The notes below the pieces were generated by a model that saw nothing but the letters and a program-made list of their open reading frames with translations, was not told where the DNA came from and made no database searches. Positions 2,671 to 36,864 of a DNA stretch of 41,672 bases are shown piece by piece; the first letter of the stretch is position 1, and every line of letters starts with the position of its first letter. Position numbers and translations under genes: made by a program. Origin of the DNA: Elusimicrobiota bacterium (GTDB lineage: Bacteria > Elusimicrobiota > Elusimicrobia > UBA1565 > UBA9628); the NCBI GenBank assembly GCA_016207605.1, contig JACQPJ010000014.1:1-41672 (forward strand). Direction: 5' to 3'.

Positions 2671-4728
2671 ATGGGGCATCGTGAGGCCGCATGGCGATGG
2701 GCTCAGACGCTTGTGCCGTCCCTGCTTTTGCTGGGCGCCTTGGCCCTGCGCCTGGCGCGCGTCGAGACCCTCCAAGCGTACCAGGATAAGATCTTCGACG
2801 CGTACCAGGCGTTGAGCCCGCGGCCCTACCGGTCCGCCCCGGTCCGCGTCATCGACATTGACGACGAGAGCCTGGCGCGGCTGGGCCCCTGGCCCTGGCC
2901 GCGGCCGCTGATGGCGCGGCTTATGACACGCCTCTCCGAGCTCGGCGCGGCGGCCGTCGCCCTCGACATCGTTTTTTCCGAACCCGACCGGACCTCGCCG
3001 CGCCGGCTCGCGGACCTGATGCCGAACCTCCCCGAGACCGCCGCCTTCCGGGAGAAGGCGCGCCTGCTGCCGGACCACGACGCCCTCCTGGCGCAGGCCA
3101 TGGCCCGGACCCGCGCGGCGGCCGGCTTCATGCTCACCGACCGAGCCAGCCCGGCCGCGCCGGCGCTCAAGGCCGGCATCGCCTACGCCGGAGACAGCCC
3201 CTTAAGCTACCTGGGGGACTTTTCCGGCGCCGTCCTCAACCTGCCGGAGCTGGAGGGGGCGGCGGCGGGCCACGGGTTCCTGAACTTCATCCCCGAGGGG
3301 GACGGCATCGTCCGCCGCGTCCCGCTCCTCCTGCGCAAGGGCCCGGTCGTCTACCCCTCCCTGGCGCTCGAGGCGCTGCGCCTGGCCCAGGGAGCCGACG
3401 GACTGGCCGTCAAATCCTCCGGCGCCAGCCGCGTGCCCAGCTTCGGCCAGCACACGGGCATCAACTCGGTCAAGGTCGGCGCGCTTGTCCTGCCGACCGA
3501 CGCGGCGGGACGTTTCCGGCCGCATTATTCAGAGCCCTCCCCCGAACGGACGATCCCGGCGTGGCGCCTCCTCGAGCCCGTTTTCCCCAAGGAGAGGGTC
3601 GCCGGCGCCATCGCGCTGGTCGGGTCCAGCGCGCCCAGGCTGCAGGATCTGCACGCAACCCCGCTCCATCCCGCCGCGCCCGGGGTCGAGATCCAGGCCC
3701 AAATCGTGGAACAGGCCCTGCTCGGGGCCTTCCTGCGCCGCCCGGATTGGGCCGACGGCGCCGAGGCCGCCTACCTGCTCGCCCTGGGAGGTCTGCTCAT
3801 CCTCCTCCTGCCGCGGCTGGGAGCCGCGTGGTGCGGCATCTGGGGCCTGACGATGGCGGCGGCGGCTTTCCCCTTGTCCTGGTACGCCTATTCCCGCCTC
3901 CATTGGCTCCTGGATCCGCTGTTCCCGTCGCTGGCCGCGCTGGCCATCTACACGGCCTCCTCCCTGATCGGACGCCTGCGCGACGAGGCGGAGCGCAGGA
4001 GGCTGCTGATCCTCGACGCGGCCAAGGACCATTTCGTCTCCACCGTGTCGCACGACCTGCGCGGCCCCGTCAACGCCATGATCATGGTCGTCCAGGCGAT
4101 GCGCGCGGGTCTCTACGGCCCCCTCAACGAAAAGCAGAGCCAGAACCTGCTGCGGGTGGAGACCGCGGGCTGGCAGCTGGTCCTGCTCATCTCGAACATC
4201 CTGGACGCGGCCAAGATCAAGGCCGGCCGCATGAAGCTGCACCGGCAGGAGGTCCGGCCGCGGGAGCTGGTGTCGCCCGTCGTCGAGATCTTCGCGCTGG
4301 TAGCCGCCTCCAGGGGAACGGCCCTGGAGACGCGGGTCCCGGACGACCTGCCCCCCCTCTTCGCCGACCGGGAGAAGCTCGAGCAGGTGGTCAACAACCT
4401 CGTGTCGAACGCGCTCAAGTTCACGCCGACGGGCGGGCGCATCATCGTCGGCGCGGAACTCGACGGGGACGGCGTGCGCTTCCGCGTGGACGACACGGGT
4501 CGCGGAATCGCCGCCGAGGACATCCCCAAGCTCTTTCAGGAGTTCCAGCAGCTCGATGCGGGTCTGCGCAAGGAGCTTAAGATCGCGGGAACGGGCCTGG
4601 GGCTGGCGATCTGCCGGACCATCATCGAGGCGCACGGCGGCAGGATCTGGGTCGAATCGGAGAAGGGGAAAGGCTCCTCGTTCCTCTTCACCATCCCCGC
4701 GCGGGCGCACGGCGCCCCCACCGCGTAG
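2671..4728 (+). CDS. CHASE2-domain sensor histidine kinase
   Basis: CHASE2-like extracytoplasmic region (VRVIDIDDESLARLGPWPWPR...ALDIVFSEPDR), C-terminal TM helices, then HisKA/HATPase with H-box (STVSHDLRGPVNAM), N-box (NNLVSNALKFTP), G1 (DDTGRGI), G2 (GTGLGLAI). Confidence 0.9.
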   Translation: MGHREAAWRWAQTLVPSLLLLGALALRLARVETLQAYQDKIFDAYQALSPRPYRSAPVRVIDIDDESLARLGPWPWPRPLMARLMTRLSELGAAAVALDIVFSEPDRTSPRRLADLMPNLPETAAFREKARLLPDHDALLAQAMARTRAAAGFMLTDRASPAAPALKAGIAYAGDSPLSYLGDFSGAVLNLPELEGAAAGHGFLNFIPEGDGIVRRVPLLLRKGPVVYPSLALEALRLAQGADGLAVKSSGASRVPSFGQHTGINSVKVGALVLPTDAAGRFRPHYSEPSPERTIPAWRLLEPVFPKERVAGAIALVGSSAPRLQDLHATPLHPAAPGVEIQAQIVEQALLGAFLRRPDWADGAEAAYLLALGGLLILLLPRLGAAWCGIWGLTMAAAAFPLSWYAYSRLHWLLDPLFPSLAALAIYTASSLIGRLRDEAERRRLLILDAAKDHFVSTVSHDLRGPVNAMIMVVQAMRAGLYGPLNEKQSQNLLRVETAGWQLVLLISNILDAAKIKAGRMKLHRQEVRPRELVSPVVEIFALVAASRGTALETRVPDDLPPLFADREKLEQVVNNLVSNALKFTPTGGRIIVGAELDGDGVRFRVDDTGRGIAAEDIPKLFQEFQQLDAGLRKELKIAGTGLGLAICRTIIEAHGGRIWVESEKGKGSSFLFTIPARAHGAPTA

Positions 4729-4809
4729 GCGATCGCGCCGAGTGAAGCGCCCGCCGCCATCCGACGGGAAAATTGCTATACTCGCCCTCCCCGGGAGGGA
4801 TCAACGAAC

Positions 4810-6018
4810 ATGCAGCGAAAAGGCAAGTATTTCTTCAACTCCGAGTCCGTGACCGAGGGGCACCCCGACAAGGTCTGCGACCAGATTTCCGACGCCGTGC
4901 TCGACGCGGTCCTGGCCCAGGACCCCCTGAGCCGCGTGGGCTGCGAGACCTTCGTCTCCCGCGGGCTGGTGATCGTCGGCGGAGAGATCACGACCCGCGC
5001 CTGGGTGGACGTGGACAAGCTGGTGCGCGAGGTCGTCGCCGACATCGGCTACACCCGCCCGGAATACGCCTTCGACGCCGCCTCCTGCGCGGTCCTCAAC
5101 GCCATCGGCCGCCAGTCCCCGGACATCGCCCAGGGCGTGGACACGGGCGGCGCGGGCGACCAGGGCATCATGTTCGGCTACGCCGTGCGCGAGACGCCGG
5201 AGCTCATGCCGCTGCCGATCATGCTCGCCCATAAGCTCACCCGCCGCCTGGCCGAGGTGCGCCGCTCCGGGGAGCTCAAGTACCTGGGCCCGGACGGCAA
5301 GTCCCAGGTCTCGGTCGAGTACTTGGACGGCCGCGCCCTGCGCGCCGACACCGTGGTGCTCTCCACTCAGCATGGCCCGGAGATTCTGGACAAGTCCGGC
5401 GAGCAGATCACCGAGAAGGCGCGCAAGGAGATCATCGACGTGGTGATCCGCCCGGTCCTGGGCAAGCGGCTCATCGATGAGAAGACCCGCTTCCTCATCA
5501 ATCCCACCGGAAAGTTCGTGGTCGGCGGCCCCGCCTCCGACGCGGGCGTGACCGGCCGCAAGATCATCGTGGACACCTACGGCGGCCGCGCCCCGCACGG
5601 CGGCGGCGCCTTCTCCGGCAAGGACCCGACGAAGGTGGACCGCTCGGCCTGCTACATGGCCCGCTGCATCGCCAAGAACGTGGTCGCGGCGGGGCTGGCC
5701 GACGAGTGCACCGTCCAGCTCGCCTACGCCATCGGCGTGGCCGAGCCCGTCGGCGTCTACTTCGACGCCCACGGCACCGGACACGCCGACGAGGCCCGCA
5801 TCGAGGCCGCCGTGCGCCGGCACTTCCCGATGACGCCCAAGGGCATCATCGACGCCTTCAAGCTCCGCCGCCCCATCTACCGCCCCACCGCCGCCTACGG
5901 CCACTTCGGCCGCGAGGAGAAGAACTTCGAGTGGGAGAAGACGGACAAGGCCGACGCCCTGCGCGAGGAAGTCCTCGGCCGGGCCGCGAAGGCCAAGAAG
6001 ACCCTCGCCCCCGCCTAG
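4810..6018 (+). CDS. metK: S-adenosylmethionine synthetase
   Basis: Full-length Met[67 protein letters not shown]. Confidence 0.97.
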
Positions 6019-8350: not shown

Positions 8351-8585
8351 GATGATTACCGCAGCGGAATTCGACCGCATGGCAGATGAGGGAGAGGACA
8401 TTACCCCGTATCTTGACTTGAAACATCCGATCGTGACCAAGGTACGCCGAGTCAACGTTGACTTCCCTGATTGGATGGTTCAACGGCTGGACCAAGAGGC
8501 GGTGAAGCTCAATATCTCCCGCCAGGCGGTCATCAAGACGTGGCTGCGCGAGCGCCTCGACCCGAATCACCGCATGACGCGTTAA
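8316..8585 (+). CDS. CopG/BrnA-type antitoxin
   Basis: MITAAEFDRMADEGEDITPYLDLKHP...RRVNVDFPDWMVQRLDQEAVKLNISRQAVIKTWLRERLD; ribbon-helix-helix BrnA-type pattern. Confidence 0.75.
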   Translation: MKKACKRKETPKMITAAEFDRMADEGEDITPYLDLKHPIVTKVRRVNVDFPDWMVQRLDQEAVKLNISRQAVIKTWLRERLDPNHRMTR

Positions 8586-8601
8586 GCGCCGCCGATTAAA
8601 G

Positions 8602-8617
8602 CTTACTCCGGAGTAAG
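8602..8617. terminator. bidirectional terminator-like perfect palindrome between convergent genes
   Basis: CTTACTCCGGAGTAAG flanked by AAAG on one side and TTTT on the other; it also encodes the last residues and stop of the minus-strand gene. Confidence 0.55.
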
Positions 8618-9967
8618 TTTTGATTCCGGAAAAGACACGCGTATCGCGCCCGCGTCGGCCGCGGGATGTCGGGCGTCGAGCGTGATGTCGCCACGGTGGC
8701 CGGAGACTTCGGGCGGGCCGGAGGCGGCTGCGGCGGGAAAGGCGAAGGCGAGGTAGTAGCGGCCGGCGGGAAGGCCGTAGAACGCGAAGCGGCCCCGGAC
8801 GTCCGGCTCCGCCGCCGCGACCAGGCCCGAGGCGTCCAATAGGTAGGACGGATCGCCCCATCGGTAGAGCGCGACGGCCGCGGGGCGGGGGCCGCGTAGG
8901 GTCCCCGAGACGCGCCCCGGCGACAGGGCGCCGACGGCGTCGAGGCCTAAAAGGCCGGCCGGCACGCCGCCACGGGCGGCCCAGCGCCCCGACTCGGGGC
9001 CGGCGCCCAGGCGGGCGTAGGCGCGGGCCAGGGAGACCGCGCCGAGCGGCCCGATCCGATAAGCCCGCTCGTCGGACAGGGCGTCCAGCGCGGCGCGGGC
9101 CTCCGGCGACGAGGCGGCCGAAGCGAGATGGGACGACAGCAGGGCGAAGGCCAGGCCGTCGCCGCGGGAGGCGCCCAAGGACAAGTCCCGGCGCAGGGCG
9201 GGGACGTCCCAGCGCTTGACGTCCTCCTCGTACAAGGCCCGGAGCGCGGGCAGGGCGCGGGCGTCGCCGGGTTTGGCGGCCAAGGCGCGCAGCTCGGGCC
9301 GGACGTCGCGGCTGGAGAAGAGGCCGGAGATCAGGAGATAGGGCTCCCGGCTGGGACCGGCCGGCGTCTCGGTCAAGACCACGTAGGCGGCAACGACCGG
9401 GGGGCCCGGGTCCGGGAGGGGACGCCCCACGCCGCGGGCCCGGGCCAGACCGGCGCCGCCTAGGTCGAGCGCGGCCAGGACGAAGGCGAGCCGGAGCGCG
9501 CGGCCGCGGCGGCCGGCGGCCCAGGCAAGGGAGAGCTCGGCGGCCAGGGCCAGGAACGCGGCCGCCAGGACGAAGACGACGAGGGGCTCGCGGACGTCCA
9601 TGGAGCCGTAGGGAAACCAGACGAGTTGGACCAGGTCGAGGACGCGCCGGAATGCGTCCGCGGCCAGGAGCGCGGCGGCGACGAACCCGCCGAGCGCGAC
9701 GAGAATGCGCCGAGATGCGGCGCGCCAAAGAGAACGCAAATAAACAAAGCCGGCCGCCAAAAGAGCCAGCGCGACGACGCCGGAAAAGATCGCCCGGCCG
9801 CGGCCCGTCGCCGACATCGCCCACGCCGCTTGGTAGAGCCAAAAGCCGCCGCGGCGCGGGAGGAAAAAGGCATCGGACGGAGGCAGGCGCGAGACGAAGA
9901 GCATCGCGGCCAGCGCGGCCGCGGCCGCGAGGGGCGCAAGCCGACGGGTCCCGGTCGCCTCGGTCAT
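8603..9967 (-). CDS. multi-pass membrane protein with C-terminal carboxypeptidase-regulatory-like domain
   Basis: Several N-terminal hydrophobic segments; C-terminal VSGTLRGPRPAAVALYRWGDPSYLLDASGLVAAAEPDVRGRFAFYGLPAGRYYLAFAFP resembles a CarboxypepD_reg fold. Confidence 0.55.
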   Translation of the reverse strand: MTEATGTRRLAPLAAAAALAAMLFVSRLPPSDAFFLPRRGGFWLYQAAWAMSATGRGRAIFSGVVALALLAAGFVYLRSLWRAASRRILVALGGFVAAALLAADAFRRVLDLVQLVWFPYGSMDVREPLVVFVLAAAFLALAAELSLAWAAGRRGRALRLAFVLAALDLGGAGLARARGVGRPLPDPGPPVVAAYVVLTETPAGPSREPYLLISGLFSSRDVRPELRALAAKPGDARALPALRALYEEDVKRWDVPALRRDLSLGASRGDGLAFALLSSHLASAASSPEARAALDALSDERAYRIGPLGAVSLARAYARLGAGPESGRWAARGGVPAGLLGLDAVGALSPGRVSGTLRGPRPAAVALYRWGDPSYLLDASGLVAAAEPDVRGRFAFYGLPAGRYYLAFAFPAAAASGPPEVSGHRGDITLDARHPAADAGAIRVSFPESKLTPE

Positions 9968-10004: not shown

Positions 10005-10790
10005 ATGGAGCTGCGCCTTGGCGTCGTCCAGAATCACCCCAAGTTCCTCAAGGCGCCGGGCAACCTCAAGGCCTGCCTGGAGCTCATGGACAAGCACGAG
10101 GCCGACCTCTGGGTCCTGCCCGAGCTCTTCGCCTCCGGCTACGCCTTCAAGACCAAGGCCGAGGCGGCGCGCTGCGCCGAACGCGCCGACGGCCCCCTGG
10201 CGAGCCTGCTCAAGGCCTACGCCGCCCAGCGCGGCTGCGCGATCGTGGCGGGCTTCCCGGAGAAGGCCGGGGCGCGCCTCTACAACTCCGCGATGCTGGT
10301 GACGGCCGCCAAGACGCGGGTCTACCGCAAAACGCACATCTTCGGCGGCGAGAAGCGCTTCTTCGCCCCCGGCGACACGGGCCTCTGGGTGGAGGACGTG
10401 GCCGGCGCGAAGGTGGGCGTGATGATCTGCTTCGACTGGTTCTTCCCGGAGGCCGCGCGCACGCTGGCGCTGCGCGGTGCGCAGGTGATCGCGCACCCCT
10501 CGAACTTGGTCCTGCCCTGGGCCCCGGAGGGCATGAAGATCCGCTCCCTGGAGAACCGCGTCTTCAGCGCCACCGCCAACCGGGTCGGCGCCGAGCGCGG
10601 CCTGCGCTTCATCGGGCAGTCCCAGATCGTCTCGCCCAACGGCTCCCTGCTCGCCCGCCTCGGCCACGAGGAGACCCGCGCCGCGGTGGTCGCCGTGGAC
10701 GCCTGGACCGCCAAGGACAAGAAGGTCCATCCCGCCAACGACCTCTTCGCCGACCGGCGGCCGTCCCTGTATGGCCTCGCGAAAGCCTAA
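10005..10790 (+). CDS. carbon-nitrogen hydrolase (nitrilase superfamily)
   Basis: Catalytic Glu/Lys/Cys motifs: LWVLPELFASGY, VYRKTHIFGGEKRFF, VGVMICFDWFFPEAARTLALRGAQVIAHPSNLV. Confidence 0.9.
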   Translation: MELRLGVVQNHPKFLKAPGNLKACLELMDKHEADLWVLPELFASGYAFKTKAEAARCAERADGPLASLLKAYAAQRGCAIVAGFPEKAGARLYNSAMLVTAAKTRVYRKTHIFGGEKRFFAPGDTGLWVEDVAGAKVGVMICFDWFFPEAARTLALRGAQVIAHPSNLVLPWAPEGMKIRSLENRVFSATANRVGAERGLRFIGQSQIVSPNGSLLARLGHEETRAAVVAVDAWTAKDKKVHPANDLFADRRPSLYGLAKA

Positions 10791-15748: not shown

Positions 15749-15819
15749 AGCCCCCTCCCAGAATCGAACTGGGGTAGCCAGTTTACAAAACTGGTGCTCT
15801 GCCACTGAGCTAAGGGGGC
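15749..15819 (-). tRNA. tRNA-Thr (anticodon TGT)
   Basis: Reverse complement GCCCCCTTAGCTCAGTGGCAGAGCACCAGTTTTGTAAACTGGCTACCCCAGTTCGATTCTGGGAGGGGGCT folds as a cloverleaf; loop TTTGTAA gives anticodon TGT; CCA not encoded. Confidence 0.93.
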
Positions 15820-15871
15820 GTCGCCCAAAAGTTTAACAGGTTTTTACAACAGCGGGGAGGGGGCGTTATAG

Positions 15872-16480
15872 TTAATCTGGTCGCATAACTGCCAATGCCC
15901 ATAAGCTCGAGTGGAAGTCCATCGCGACCAATGGTGGCAAGAATGACTCTTCTACCCAAACAAAGGAAAATGCCCCCAACTGAACAGTCTGCCAGCGGTC
16001 TGTCTGCGCCTCCATAAGGCTCCGCACCTCAAAAGGGATCCTATTCGGAGAGACTAATGGATATGTCAGGATCTTAAAATTGTCGAGTTCCAGCCTTCGG
16101 TTATTCATGGCGGCCAGACCCACCGCAATTTTGGCGATGACCCGGTCCACGCGACCCTGTTCGGGCAAGAGGGCTGGGCGCCCATCCTGAATACATGCTT
16201 GTCTTTGGAAGCGCGCCGCCAACGCCGGACGGCGGGCCAAAGTACGTCCAATAACCCCACGCCGTTGAAGCCTGGACACGAGCAATGGGGCCGTTCCGAT
16301 CAATGCGAGAGCAACGAGGAAGTACTGCTCGTCGCTTGAGAACCCATGATTGCAGCTTGCACAAGCTGGGACTGTAGGAACGTTCGTGGGATAAGGGTCA
16401 TTGAGCAAGGCCTTCGGCACTACATGCTCGCGGGAAGCCGCATCACTAGAACAAAAAGTGCAAACCCGCCTCATCTTCAT
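15872..16480 (-). CDS. HNH endonuclease-like protein
   Basis: CTFCSSDAASREHVVPKALLNDPYPTNVPTVPACASCNHGFSSDEQYF: CxxC...EHVxP...CxxCN zinc/HNH signature. A longer start at 16543 would overlap the upstream gene. Confidence 0.75.
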   Translation of the reverse strand: MKMRRVCTFCSSDAASREHVVPKALLNDPYPTNVPTVPACASCNHGFSSDEQYFLVALALIGTAPLLVSRLQRRGVIGRTLARRPALAARFQRQACIQDGRPALLPEQGRVDRVIAKIAVGLAAMNNRRLELDNFKILTYPLVSPNRIPFEVRSLMEAQTDRWQTVQLGAFSFVWVEESFLPPLVAMDFHSSLWALAVMRPD

Positions 16481-16505
16481 CCGCTTTGCCTTCGGATGCG
16501 ACGGC

Positions 16506-16778
16506 CTATTCCTTTGTGATCTCGATTTGGTGGTCGCGGGCAAGTTGAGTCAGGCAGGTCCACACAGCCGCGTTTGGATTAAAGACTGAAATCTTTCCGC
16601 CTTGCTTCTTCGCGATGACCGGTACGACCTCATCGCCGAAGGAGGAGCCCAGCGCAATCGTTCCTTCAAAGTCAAGGCAAACGGGAGGCGCCAGTTTTTC
16701 CTCCAGTTCTTTCATGACCTTTCGCCCGAATTCTCGTCCCGTGAGAATCGGCCCGTACTGATTCATCTTTATATTCAT
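16506..16778 (-). CDS. STAS-like domain protein (DUF4325 type)
   Basis: GREFGRKVMKELEEKLAPPVCLDFEGTIALGSSFGDEVVPVIAKKQGGKISVFNPNAAV; start overlaps the upstream ATPase stop by 4 nt. Confidence 0.7.
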   Translation of the reverse strand: MNIKMNQYGPILTGREFGRKVMKELEEKLAPPVCLDFEGTIALGSSFGDEVVPVIAKKQGGKISVFNPNAAVWTCLTQLARDHQIEITKE

Positions 16779-17887
16779 TGACCCCTCGCCAACCCATCGA
16801 TAAAAGCCGCGGCGTCGTCTCTCGTCTTGGCGTCAAAAGCATGGTCAATGAGCACGAGAGAAACGCGCGTTCCCTTCGGCAATCGTTCGTTGAAACTGAT
16901 TCGATGGTCGTTTTTCTTGAAGTCTCCATGCCAGACGTTGCCGCCGCTCTCGGCGCGGATGATGGATTCGTTCCCCATGGCAATGGTTAAAACATCCGTG
17001 AGACCGCGCCCTCTATTATATTCGTCCCCCCAGCTGCTGATCCCCGGCTTGAAGGCAATTAAGAACGCCTCGCGATCGCTGAGCGCCGAATGCTTTGGAT
17101 TCTTCTTCAGCGTCGCGTGTATGCCCGGCCCGGCATCGGCGATGCTGATGATGATGCAGTCCTGCTTCGACTGGATAAAGCGGTATCGCTGCGCCAGCAA
17201 GTACGAATCCGCCGCATCGTCGCTTCGGGTCAGGTGCGTCGTGGCGTTGTCCGCCAGCTCCCCATAGATCCAGCCGATATATCCGCCGATGGTCTCCGAG
17301 AAACCCTGCCCCCTCAGCATTTGCACCAAGCCCGCGACCACGGGCGCCTCGTCCTTCTGAAAGCGGACGTTGGTCAGCGGTATCGGATACTGAATATCGG
17401 TGTAGTCGGTCCTAAGCGCGGTCTTGTCCCAAGCGATTTTGTCGCCGCACTTCTTTTCTAATTCGGCAAAAAATCCCAATCCCCGCAGGTGATTGCAGAT
17501 GAAGCCGTCTTCAACGATCATATTCACGACATTGCCGGCATTCACCTTACCTACGATGGAACAAAATAACCCAAGAACTCCATGGGGATCGAATCGGCGG
17601 ATTTTTCTCAAATCGAAGGTGGTCCCATCGGATAAAACGTCCGCGGCAATGGAAGGACTAAAAACGGTTAAATCGACTTTTGCAGCCGATTCAATCTTAG
17701 CCGCGCAAATCGGCTTGCCGGTGCCGGCATCCAAAATAGATTGAATATCCTCGTGCAAAAAGCGCGGCCGCGCTCCAAATGAAAATTCTCGAAGTTTTAA
17801 GGTCTTGCGTATCTTGTCAAAGGTCGGGCGACTGATCTTCAGCAAGGCACAGGCCTCTTTTATCGTCAGGTATTTTCTTGATTTCAT
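16775..17887 (-). CDS. HTH (excisionase/MerR-like) N-terminus fused to GHKL ATPase
   Basis: N-terminal YLTIKEACALLKISRPTFDKIRKTLKLREFSFGARPRFLHEDIQSIL; GHKL N-box YGELADNATTHL, G1 IADAGPGI, G2 NRGRGLTDV. Confidence 0.8.
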   Translation of the reverse strand: MKSRKYLTIKEACALLKISRPTFDKIRKTLKLREFSFGARPRFLHEDIQSILDAGTGKPICAAKIESAAKVDLTVFSPSIAADVLSDGTTFDLRKIRRFDPHGVLGLFCSIVGKVNAGNVVNMIVEDGFICNHLRGLGFFAELEKKCGDKIAWDKTALRTDYTDIQYPIPLTNVRFQKDEAPVVAGLVQMLRGQGFSETIGGYIGWIYGELADNATTHLTRSDDAADSYLLAQRYRFIQSKQDCIIISIADAGPGIHATLKKNPKHSALSDREAFLIAFKPGISSWGDEYNRGRGLTDVLTIAMGNESIIRAESGGNVWHGDFKKNDHRISFNERLPKGTRVSLVLIDHAFDAKTRDDAAAFIDGLARGQ

Positions 17888-17891
17888 AAAA

Positions 17892-17917
17892 TTTACATTT
17901 CTTTACAACTATTTACA
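17892..17917 (-). promoter_or_regulatory. three 10-bp-phased TGTAAA (TTTACA) repeats upstream of the HTH-ATPase; candidate operator
   Basis: TTTACA at 17892-17897, 17902-17907 and 17912-17917, exactly 10 bp apart. TATAAT-like boxes on the minus strand at 17943-17948 and 17919-17924. Confidence 0.5.
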
Positions 17918-17996
17918 AAATATAGCTCCCAGAACTGCCCTAATTATAGCTTAAAAATCGTAGGATATAGTCGCTTTTCCCGCCTCAAGGAGACCT

Positions 17997-29988: not shown

Positions 29989-31671
29989 CTAGAGAAAAAC
30001 GGTCTGCGTCGAAACAAATTTCGGCTGAAGAGCGACGGCAGGCGTGCCGGAGCGAAAAATATATCGCTGGTTGAGCTGGAGAATCTCCGGGGAATCCCGC
30101 GTATAAACATCCCCCGCCGACGCCGACCGCACCAAGCGCCTCACGGACTCAATGAGAAGCCTCTTCTCATCCGGGCGGACCCAAACCGGATAGGGCATTC
30201 TTTCCACATCCTTGCCTTGGATATTTCGGGTATGGTTGATAACGCCTTTGAGAATGCCGTTGAAAAGATCCGTCAGCATCCAGCCAAGGATGAAATAAAG
30301 CTCGTCTTCCGGAATCCCTTCGCGGACGAAGGCGCAGGGAGCTCCGCTGTCCAGAATATAACCGCTGGGAAGAAACTTGGCGTGCACTCGAGACGCCACC
30401 AGAGACCACGTAATGCCGGATTTTCCAAAAAAAGGCTTGCCCCCGACCCCCTGTAGGTACCAGTTGCCGTTTTTCTTGAACGTGCGCACGGCGTCGCCGG
30501 CGTCCTTCCAGAAGATCGCCCATTCGGCCGGCGCGTAGATGACCTTGTTGTTTGCTTTGTTGTAATAGCAGTAATCCAGATTGGGAAGAGCAACGACTCG
30601 CGGCGGGTGCAGCTCATGCCAACGGACATTCCGTCTGGTCGCCCCAGACCGCGCAAGCTCCGATATCTTGAGGGCCTGGGCATCGCTCAAACGGTTAAGC
30701 CGCGCCCGAGCCCGTTCTCTTTCCAACGTTATGGGCTCCTCAAAGAACTCGAACACAAGCCGCTCGACCACGCGCCCATCCTGAATCGGACGCAGAAATA
30801 GGTCGTTGTTGCCCGTCGTCATCCCGCTCGTAGCGACGACAAAGTCTCCCAGCGTCGCGCCCGTGAAATATTTCGAGAACTCGCCCCCCAAGCGCCAGCT
30901 TAGATTGCCCGTCCGCTCGATCTCCTCGTGGGAAAAAGTCTGTCCAAACACCTCCACGACGCTCGGCCTCGCGCCGGTCTTTATAAAATCAAGGAGAACC
31001 ATCGGATGCGAAGTCTCGTCGAACAAGCCGGGCACTTCCCGAATCCGCATTTGGCCGCTGGCCATGAGGAATGCTCTAAGCCCCCTCATCGTATTGATCG
31101 TCAAAAACGTGTCGGAGCAGATGAACAGAAGCCTCCCCCCCGGCCTGAGAAGATCGCAGGCTTTCACGACGAAGAAGCTATAGGTCTCCTTTTTTATTTT
31201 TTGCCCATGCCTCCAGCCATAAACGGCATCCAAGGCATCCTGGATGTCGGGCCCAATGGATCCGCCGAACGGCGGATTCCCGATAATAAGGTCAAAGAAC
31301 TCCCAATCGCGCTTGAAATAGAACTCTTTTCGCAGGAAATCCTCCGACAGGCCGCTCGGCATCCAGCGAAAGAAATCCGTCTGATTTAAGTGCAGCCTCA
31401 AATTCGGAGAGTCTTTCCGCTGCAGCGCGGAAACGCCGGCCTCGAAGAAATCACGATCTAACTCGCATCCCCAAACCTCGCCTGAGACCCCGATCCGACG
31501 CGCCCTCTCTTGGAGCGCCCTGATAAAAACTCCGCGGCCGAAGCTGGGCTCAAGAATCCGCATCCCCGGTGAAAATCGGATTTCGTCCACAACGCCGGCG
31601 GCGATATTCTCGGGGGTCAGGAACTGGCCGAGCTGCCGTTTTTTCTGTCTGGCAAATCTTGCGGTGCTCAT
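29989..31671 (-). CDS. N6-adenine DNA methyltransferase with C-terminal target-recognition region
   Basis: LGQFLTPENIAAGVVDEI, ILEPSFGRGVFIRAL, DLIIGNPPFGG (NPPF), YSFFVVKACDLLRPGGRLLFICSDTFL; C-terminal TaqI-C-like region. Confidence 0.88.
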   Translation of the reverse strand: MSTARFARQKKRQLGQFLTPENIAAGVVDEIRFSPGMRILEPSFGRGVFIRALQERARRIGVSGEVWGCELDRDFFEAGVSALQRKDSPNLRLHLNQTDFFRWMPSGLSEDFLRKEFYFKRDWEFFDLIIGNPPFGGSIGPDIQDALDAVYGWRHGQKIKKETYSFFVVKACDLLRPGGRLLFICSDTFLTINTMRGLRAFLMASGQMRIREVPGLFDETSHPMVLLDFIKTGARPSVVEVFGQTFSHEEIERTGNLSWRLGGEFSKYFTGATLGDFVVATSGMTTGNNDLFLRPIQDGRVVERLVFEFFEEPITLERERARARLNRLSDAQALKISELARSGATRRNVRWHELHPPRVVALPNLDYCYYNKANNKVIYAPAEWAIFWKDAGDAVRTFKKNGNWYLQGVGGKPFFGKSGITWSLVASRVHAKFLPSGYILDSGAPCAFVREGIPEDELYFILGWMLTDLFNGILKGVINHTRNIQGKDVERMPYPVWVRPDEKRLLIESVRRLVRSASAGDVYTRDSPEILQLNQRYIFRSGTPAVALQPKFVSTQTVFL

Positions 31672-35694: not shown

Positions 35695-36864
35695 ATGTAC
35701 TCTAGATATATAGACCTCCCCAAGCGCAATAGTTTCTTTCTCTTCGGCCCCCGGCTGACCGGCAAGAGCACGCTCTTGCGCCAAACTTTCGCGGGCGAGG
35801 AAGTCCTTTTTCTGGACTTGCTTCATCCATCCGTTCATCAGAAATACCTCGCCGAGCCCGCGGCGTTCTTGCGCGAGATCGAAGCCGCCAACGGGAAGTA
35901 CAAGCGAATTGTTCTTGACGAAATCCAGCGCGTCCCCGCGCTCTTGGATGTGGTGCATCATCTCATGGAGTCCTCTGCGGGACGTCATCTCCAATTCATC
36001 ATGAGCGGATCGAACACGCGAAAACTCAAACGCTCCAAGGCAAACCTCTTGGGCGGCCGCGCATGGTCGTTGGAACTTTTCCCCCTGACGCGGGAAGAAT
36101 TAGGAGCCGACTTCGTTCTGGAAAAAGCGCTCGCCTTCGGAACCCTGCCCAGAATCTATGCCGGTCAGGAAACGGAAGCGGAGGAAAACCTGCGCGCTTA
36201 CGTGGAAACTTACCTGACCGAGGAAATCAAAGCGGAGGCGCTGACCCGCAACCTGGGAGCGTTCATCCGCTTCTTGCCGATGGCCGCGGCCGAAAGCGGA
36301 CACACGATCAATGCCTCCAATATTGGACGGGAAGTCGGGATCAGCTACAAAACGGTCCAGGAATATTTTCAAATCCTTGAGGATACCCTGCTGGGATTTT
36401 GGCTCGAGCCTTTCGCCAAGACCGTGCGAAGACGAATGGCCAAGCAGCCCAAGTTCTACTTCTTCGACATGGGAGTGCTTCGGGCTCTCAAAAAGACCCT
36501 CAAGGTCCCGCTGGAGCGCGCCAGTCCGGAATTCGGCGATCTCTTCGAAAACTTTTTCATCAACGAAGTCAGGCGTCTCAATTCCTATCATCGCCTCGAC
36601 ATGGCTTTTACTTTTTACCGGACGGATGCCGGGGCCGAAGTGGACCTGATCGCGCAGCGGCCGGGGAAGCCCTGGCTGGCCATGGAAATCAAAGCCACGG
36701 AACGCCCTTCGGCATCCCTTTGCTCCGGCCTATTGTCCTTTGCCGACATCATGCCCAAGGCGGAACTCTTGCTGGTTTGCCGAACGGGTCAGCCGCAACT
36801 CTTCCGATTTGGGAAACGCACGGTGCGAGCGTTGTCGTGGCTGGATTGCCTTAATATGCTCTAG
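35695..36864 (+). CDS. AAA ATPase with DUF4143 domain
   Basis: FLFGPRLTGKSTLLRQTF (Walker A), IVLDEIQRVPALLDVVHHLME (Walker B), FIMSGSNTRKL, LTREELGADF..., C-terminal DUF4143 features (EIKATERPSASLCSGLLSF). Confidence 0.9.
   Translation: MYSRYIDLPKRNSFFLFGPRLTGKSTLLRQTFAGEEVLFLDLLHPSVHQKYLAEPAAFLREIEAANGKYKRIVLDEIQRVPALLDVVHHLMESSAGRHLQFIMSGSNTRKLKRSKANLLGGRAWSLELFPLTREELGADFVLEKALAFGTLPRIYAGQETEAEENLRAYVETYLTEEIKAEALTRNLGAFIRFLPMAAAESGHTINASNIGREVGISYKTVQEYFQILEDTLLGFWLEPFAKTVRRRMAKQPKFYFFDMGVLRALKKTLKVPLERASPEFGDLFENFFINEVRRLNSYHRLDMAFTFYRTDAGAEVDLIAQRPGKPWLAMEIKATERPSASLCSGLLSFADIMPKAELLLVCRTGQPQLFRFGKRTVRALSWLDCLNML

Follow-up and report, generated by a model that had tools for sequence, protein, structure and literature searches.

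Do three low-GC genes that lie in one block on the minus strand of an Elusimicrobiota contig form a single regulatory switch with a nuclease as its output, and how does such a switch relate to systems already described? The ORF list and the sequence place a kinase gene first, a STAS gene second and an HNH-type gene third in the window, by which we mean the whole 41,672-nt stretch of contig JACQPJ010000014.1 that was analysed. The features are as follows.

17892..17917, minus strand: candidate operator, three direct repeats of TGTAAA, period exactly 10 bp, placed 4 bp before the kinase ATG
16775..17887, minus strand: HTH-STAS-GHKL kinase-like protein, 370 aa, CapK-type domain order (from ORF, motifs, hhalign and Foldseek)
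16506..16778, minus strand: STAS-like DUF4325 protein, 90 aa, PF14213 above cut-off, profile match to VapS 9z7o
15872..16480, minus strand: small HNH-type nuclease-like protein, 202 aa, conserved residues, 25-bp gap to the STAS gene
15749..15819, minus strand: tRNA-Thr (TGT), which borders the block

The kinase and STAS reading frames overlap by 4 nt. The HNH frame is open over 15872-16543 (223 aa), and its best start is the ATG at 16480, 25 bp past the STAS stop codon on the same strand; no terminator-like site was found in this gap. The HNH gene is likely the third gene of an operon, with a candidate role in it. The tRNA-Thr gene lies 52 bp beyond the HNH stop codon, and the nearest neighbours of the block are an acyl-CoA dehydrogenase (ACAD) gene, this tRNA gene and a DEAD-box helicase gene. 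The trio has a GC content of 0.52-0.55 and a GC3 of 0.59-0.66, whereas the four nearest neighbours measured have a GC3 of 0.90-0.94, and the stretch between the kinase and helicase genes is 35% GC. A preliminary description of this DNA had proposed three overlapping or abutting minus-strand genes (HTH-GHKL ATPase, STAS-like and HNH) in a block AT-richer than its flanks. The ORFs, domains and invariant motifs agree with that gene arrangement and the GC3 values with that composition; the STAS-like segment of the kinase (about 85-150) and the tRNA-Thr(TGT) at 15819-15749 (minus strand) had been overlooked. Low-GC3 genes are also present further away within the window, outside the trio. Two low-GC3 stretches, 29989-31671 and 35695-36864, encode an Eco57I/N6-type DNA methyltransferase-like protein and an AAA_14/DUF4143 ATPase (PADLOC PDC-S01). 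When the trio was compared with PADLOC-DB models, neither the kinase nor the STAS protein gave a match, and the HNH protein gave weak motif-level matches only (best PDC-M01B, E=1e-4).

Three of the domain calls lie below the Pfam cut-off: HTH_17 (kinase residues 6-53, E=7.9e-5), HATPase_c (kinase residues 208-346, E=0.0087) and HNH_5 (residues 28-69 of the third gene product, E=0.0015). We uphold them because the motifs are invariant in the family alignments. In the kinase family E210, N214, H218, D251, G253, G255, I256, G293, G295 and L296 are invariant, and the ATP-binding motifs are intact (N box E210 and N214; G1 D251, G253 and G255; G2 G293 and G295). The protein is laid out as a BldC-like wHTH (about 1-50), a STAS-like segment (about 85-150) and a GHKL domain (about 180-350). 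The middle segment is called STAS-like because it aligns with a protein whose own Pfam STAS_2 match is below the cut-off, and because of a profile match to 1sbo. With hhalign, kinase columns 89-346 matched an aligned set of VapK-like proteins and their STAS-GHKL relatives (probability 96.8%, E=2.1e-10). A structure model computed from a two-sequence alignment is well predicted in the wHTH only (the first 50 residues) and poor elsewhere; the best Foldseek match of the wHTH model is BldC (6ama, E=0.026, prob 1.00, TM 0.69 on target). Identity to HTH-less Elusimicrobiota GHKL proteins (about 320 aa) is about 22-26%. The only other HTH-type kinase found is in locus L028 (Elusimicrobia MAG JAHJSU010000155.1), at 42-44% identity to the window kinase; the two cluster together in the kinase tree (100/99), with long branches that leave the closest relatives of both uncertain. 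Searches of plasmids and phages gave no match to the window kinase, and no relatives of it were found in viral contigs.

The second gene product carries DUF4325 (PF14213) at 26.5 bits, above the 23-bit cut-off. A profile of 20 family members has as its best solved structure Escherichia VapS (9z7o, E=1.2e-11). The GSSF motif contains Ser45 and Ser46 as candidate phosphoacceptors, of which Ser46 is invariant among the 20 aligned members and Ser45 aligns with a serine of VapS. The 90-aa protein has almost nothing outside the STAS core, no DNA-binding extension and no clear C-terminal tail of the VapS sort; a similar STAS protein is found in L028, and a search of plasmids gave no match. By these profile matches the pair is homologous to VapK/VapS, which we hold with more confidence than the whole scheme given below. 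The preliminary description had likened the GHKL and STAS proteins to SpoIIAB/SpoIIAA, and that general logic is well supported. A SpoIIAB/RsbW-type sigma switch, with the ATPase as anti-sigma factor and the STAS protein as its antagonist, would share this fold logic and fit a weak profile match to SpoIIAB (1tid, E=0.005). We nevertheless consider it very improbable, with no sigma factor adjoining the block, VapS rather than SpoIIAA as the best solved STAS match, and a DNA-binding domain in the kinase itself.

The idea that no named system resembles this locus is outdated. CapKS and VapKSC are switches that turn on anti-phage weapons upon DNA damage (PMC13373217). In CapKS, ssDNA switches on the kinase CapK (HTH-STAS-GHKL), whose substrate is CapS (STAS-wHTH) (EMBO J 2026, PMC13373217); phosphorylated CapS leaves DNA and immune operons are derepressed (PMC13373217). 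The ssDNA-stacking residue is W68 in CapK and F54 in VapK, and the VapK set was gathered with CapK homologs lacking the HTH (PMC13373217). VapKSC is an operon of kinase, STAS and nuclease genes for which the same logic was proposed, freeing a PIN toxin, and VapS blocks VapC via its C-terminal extension (PMC13373217). The earlier view of an undescribed system stands only in part: the pair is of the same broad kind as CapKS/VapKSC. The VapKSC precedent, the homology of the STAS protein to VapS and the nuclease-like gene in third place would also fit a toxin-antitoxin system, in which the HNH protein is directly bound and silenced by the STAS protein and, once the latter is phosphorylated, is released to attack nucleic acid and arrest growth. 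No clear counterpart of the C-terminal extension that VapS uses against VapC is seen in the STAS protein, and a direct antitoxin role is therefore not indicated; L028, without an HNH gene, has a similar STAS protein, and the HNH family occurs without any STAS partner. HNH and PIN are, moreover, unrelated folds. We judge the toxin-antitoxin reading improbable.

Whether the HNH gene belongs with the pair was examined through its relatives and through the neighbourhoods of other pairs. Its family alignment keeps H20, C41, C44, N45, F48, E52 and Y54. Relatives were found in one intact and one stop-broken locus in the phylum, in ten plasmid records and in six viral contigs; the small HNH-type proteins of the plasmids and viral contigs are 25-31% identical to the window protein. 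No match was found in annotated phages, and the HNH structure model had no match below E=1 in the PDB. The kinase-STAS pair is absent from the 11 neighbourhoods of HNH relatives that were read (L102, L033-L036, L177-L182); several of these relatives have genes of the methyltransferase, Vsr, TIR or restriction type nearby, and others have unnamed neighbours. On the side of the pair, 341 genomes of the phylum were searched and DUF4325 was found in 71. Separate kinase-STAS pairs, mostly with the 4-nt overlap, make up most of the phylum loci fetched, and the pair is common in Elusimicrobiota. None of the 33 other separate pairs fetched has an HNH gene beside it, and L028 has an HTH-type kinase gene followed by a STAS-only gene with no HNH gene. 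These neighbourhoods rule out the trio as a conserved system: absence of co-occurrence, or an HNH protein with relatives outside the pair, was the outcome that the preliminary description had named as refuting its three-gene unit. The HNH gene is thus a plausible local pairing and not part of a conserved module, since it is missing from all 33 pairs and its relatives are found without the pair.

The same counts bear on a second reading, in which the two-gene regulatory pair acts alone and an unrelated HNH gene has hitchhiked into the same variable site by tRNA-Thr. It is favoured by the lack of HNH genes at the other pairs, by the many orphan pairs in the phylum, by L028 with its HTH-type pair alone, by HNH relatives in plasmids and viral contigs without a pair, and by the variation of the region past tRNA-Thr among genus members. 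That L028 and every other pair examined lack the HNH gene likewise weakens the HNH protein as the output of the switch. Against hitchhiking, the HNH gene follows on the same strand after a short gap free of terminator-like sites and has a similarly low GC3, and 348 of 443 CapKS pairs precede a known or predicted immune operon (PMC13373217). Strand, gap and GC3 favour the HNH protein as output, as does the PIN gene in third place in VapKSC and after the pair at L092-L095 and L144. We regard hitchhiking as a serious possibility, though one held at less than even confidence, and the HNH protein as a plausible output from its position; recurrence gives no proof of that role, and the protein would act as a nuclease.

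Elusimicrobiota harbour several sorts of kinase-STAS genes: CapKS-like, VapKSC-like beside Hma genes, orphan and fused. At L092-L095 the pair lies between a long helicase gene and a PIN gene, in that order; the helicase matches PADLOC HmaA in L092 (the one tested), and HmaB and HmaC were matched in L093, which suggests a VapKSC-like trio within Hma loci. The orphan kinase and STAS protein of L078 match the N-terminal part of PADLOC PDLC02567 (DrmA, 1750 positions) at 49-250 and 323-390, which suggests a kinase-STAS unit fused to a DISARM helicase. L091 (4563-7593) holds a DUF3800 gene, a GHKL gene, a gene for a 186-aa protein with a YSFTDE motif seen by eye and then DUF2188; it looks CapKS-like, without Pfam confirmation. 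Apparently fused GHKL-DUF4325 proteins were seen at L104 (G000:C45), L096 and L098, one in the genome of the window itself. Two further loci come from plasmid records. In L183 (Janibacter plasmid, 3929-5408) an HTH-less kinase gene is followed by one for a 188-aa DUF4325 and MarR-like protein, with a divergent ThiF-family gene nearby; the 188-aa protein weakly matches the 184-aa solved chain 9z71 (E=1.4e-4), which we take to be CapS. In L146 (Streptococcus agalactiae) a GHKL and STAS pair lies directly after a phage lysozyme gene and is therefore probably prophage-borne.

We then considered the DNA directly before the kinase ATG, where the three TGTAAA copies lie. None of 5000 local dinucleotide shuffles reached this array, for a motif picked after inspecting the sequence. 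TGTAAA-N4-TGTAAA has no occurrence elsewhere in the 1.44-Mb assembly (about 75% complete). The hexamer recurs upstream of the L028 kinase gene in three copies (p=0.001), two direct and one inverted, which are scattered and not in 10-bp tandem; the 11-mer TAGTTGTAAAG is common to the two upstream regions. Within 109 bp upstream of HTH-less kinase genes TGTAAA was found in 0 of 37, AT-rich ones included and one of the 37 being without upstream sequence. A scan of viral contigs for the repeat pattern gave 8 exact matches, and by a rough estimate chance gives several. At 15833-15849, between the HNH stop codon and the 5' end of tRNA-Thr, there is a TTGTAAA with a one-mismatch copy 10 bp away; part of this stretch may be a tRNA promoter. 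A role of the repeats as an attachment site in the anticodon loop of the tRNA was considered too and rejected, with only a 9-bp match by eye and nothing past it.

Head-to-tail binding to direct repeats has been described for BldC, whose protected tracts at smeA-sffA lie one helical turn apart (PMC5859096). Binding of the kinase HTH to the repeats is favoured because the wHTH model resembles BldC and because, among the kinase genes examined, TGTAAA was seen upstream of the two HTH-type ones only. It is offered as a proposal, as the motif was chosen after it had been seen and L028 is without tandem phasing. Deletion of the HTH from E. roggenkampii CapK left both induction and CapS phosphorylation unaffected (PMC13373217), which leaves the role of the HTH open in CapKS and weakens the role considered here.

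The block was likely acquired horizontally, as had been suggested from its composition. Several genus members have the ACAD-tRNA-Thr(TGT) neighbourhood, the region past the tRNA differs between genomes, and none of the ten such neighbourhoods fetched contains the trio. On the helicase side of the block no window neighbours are shared within the genus. Proof by an empty site is impossible, because the helicase side is unshared and the region beyond tRNA-Thr varies. In L028 two 139-nt copies of a ubiE-like 3' end (8515-8653 and 10277-10415, 85% identical) flank the HTH-kinase/STAS pair, which suggests insertion there too.

The scheme we favour is an acquired kinase/STAS switch of the CapKS/VapKSC type with its DNA binding on the kinase. 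It is favoured by the profile matches of the kinase to VapK and of the STAS protein to VapS, by the phylum-wide pair and by the CapK domain order, and as a whole we hold it with evenly balanced confidence. In the resting state the kinase would occupy the TGTAAA repeats beside its start codon by way of the N-terminal BldC-like wHTH and hold operon expression down, and the STAS protein would carry no phosphate. DNA from phage or from damage would then stimulate the GHKL domain to phosphorylate the STAS protein at Ser45/46, and release of the partner may alter DNA binding, free the HNH protein, or both. A further step would make this a third architecture of kinase-STAS immune switch, in which the BldC-like wHTH polymerises on helically phased TGTAAA repeats and so represses the operon, the STAS protein is a phospho-regulated partner and not a repressor, and the HNH protein is the output; this we put forward tentatively, as rather unlikely.

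Compared with known systems, the locus is a variant between CapKS and VapKSC and a member of neither. With CapKS it shares the HTH-STAS-GHKL order of the kinase (domain order only was compared), a STAS partner directly after it, a Ser motif in that partner and a gene downstream. CapS, in contrast, is a STAS and wHTH repressor (184-185 aa in solved structures), whereas the 90-aa window partner has no wHTH and the DNA-binding domain and adjacent repeat array belong to the kinase; CBASS/Bub genes lie downstream in CapKS and one HNH-type gene in the window. With VapKSC it shares the layout of kinase, STAS-only and nuclease genes and the STAS profile match, but VapK is without the HTH_17 of the window kinase, the third gene encodes the PIN-domain VapC and not an HNH_5-like protein, and VapS has a C-terminal tail not evident in the window. 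The orphan GHKL (about 320 aa) and DUF4325 (about 97 aa) pairs of Elusimicrobiota have the same two families and mostly the same 4-nt overlap, without the HTH, the upstream TGTAAA or the nuclease. The plasmid and viral-contig HNH-type proteins keep the conserved residues listed above but have no pair beside them in the 11 loci, and SpoIIAB/SpoIIAA systems differ in having a sigma factor partner. The BldC-type MerR-like wHTH resembles kinase residues 1-50 in predicted fold and in having direct repeats spaced by roughly one turn of the helix, although BldC is a free 68-residue protein with AATTXXXX(C) repeats and the window domain is fused to a kinase beside TGTAAA. In the kinase-STAS pair of the window, the HTH is the only recognised DNA-binding domain and has a specific candidate operator, and the question of what the kinase HTH does is therefore directly testable at this locus.
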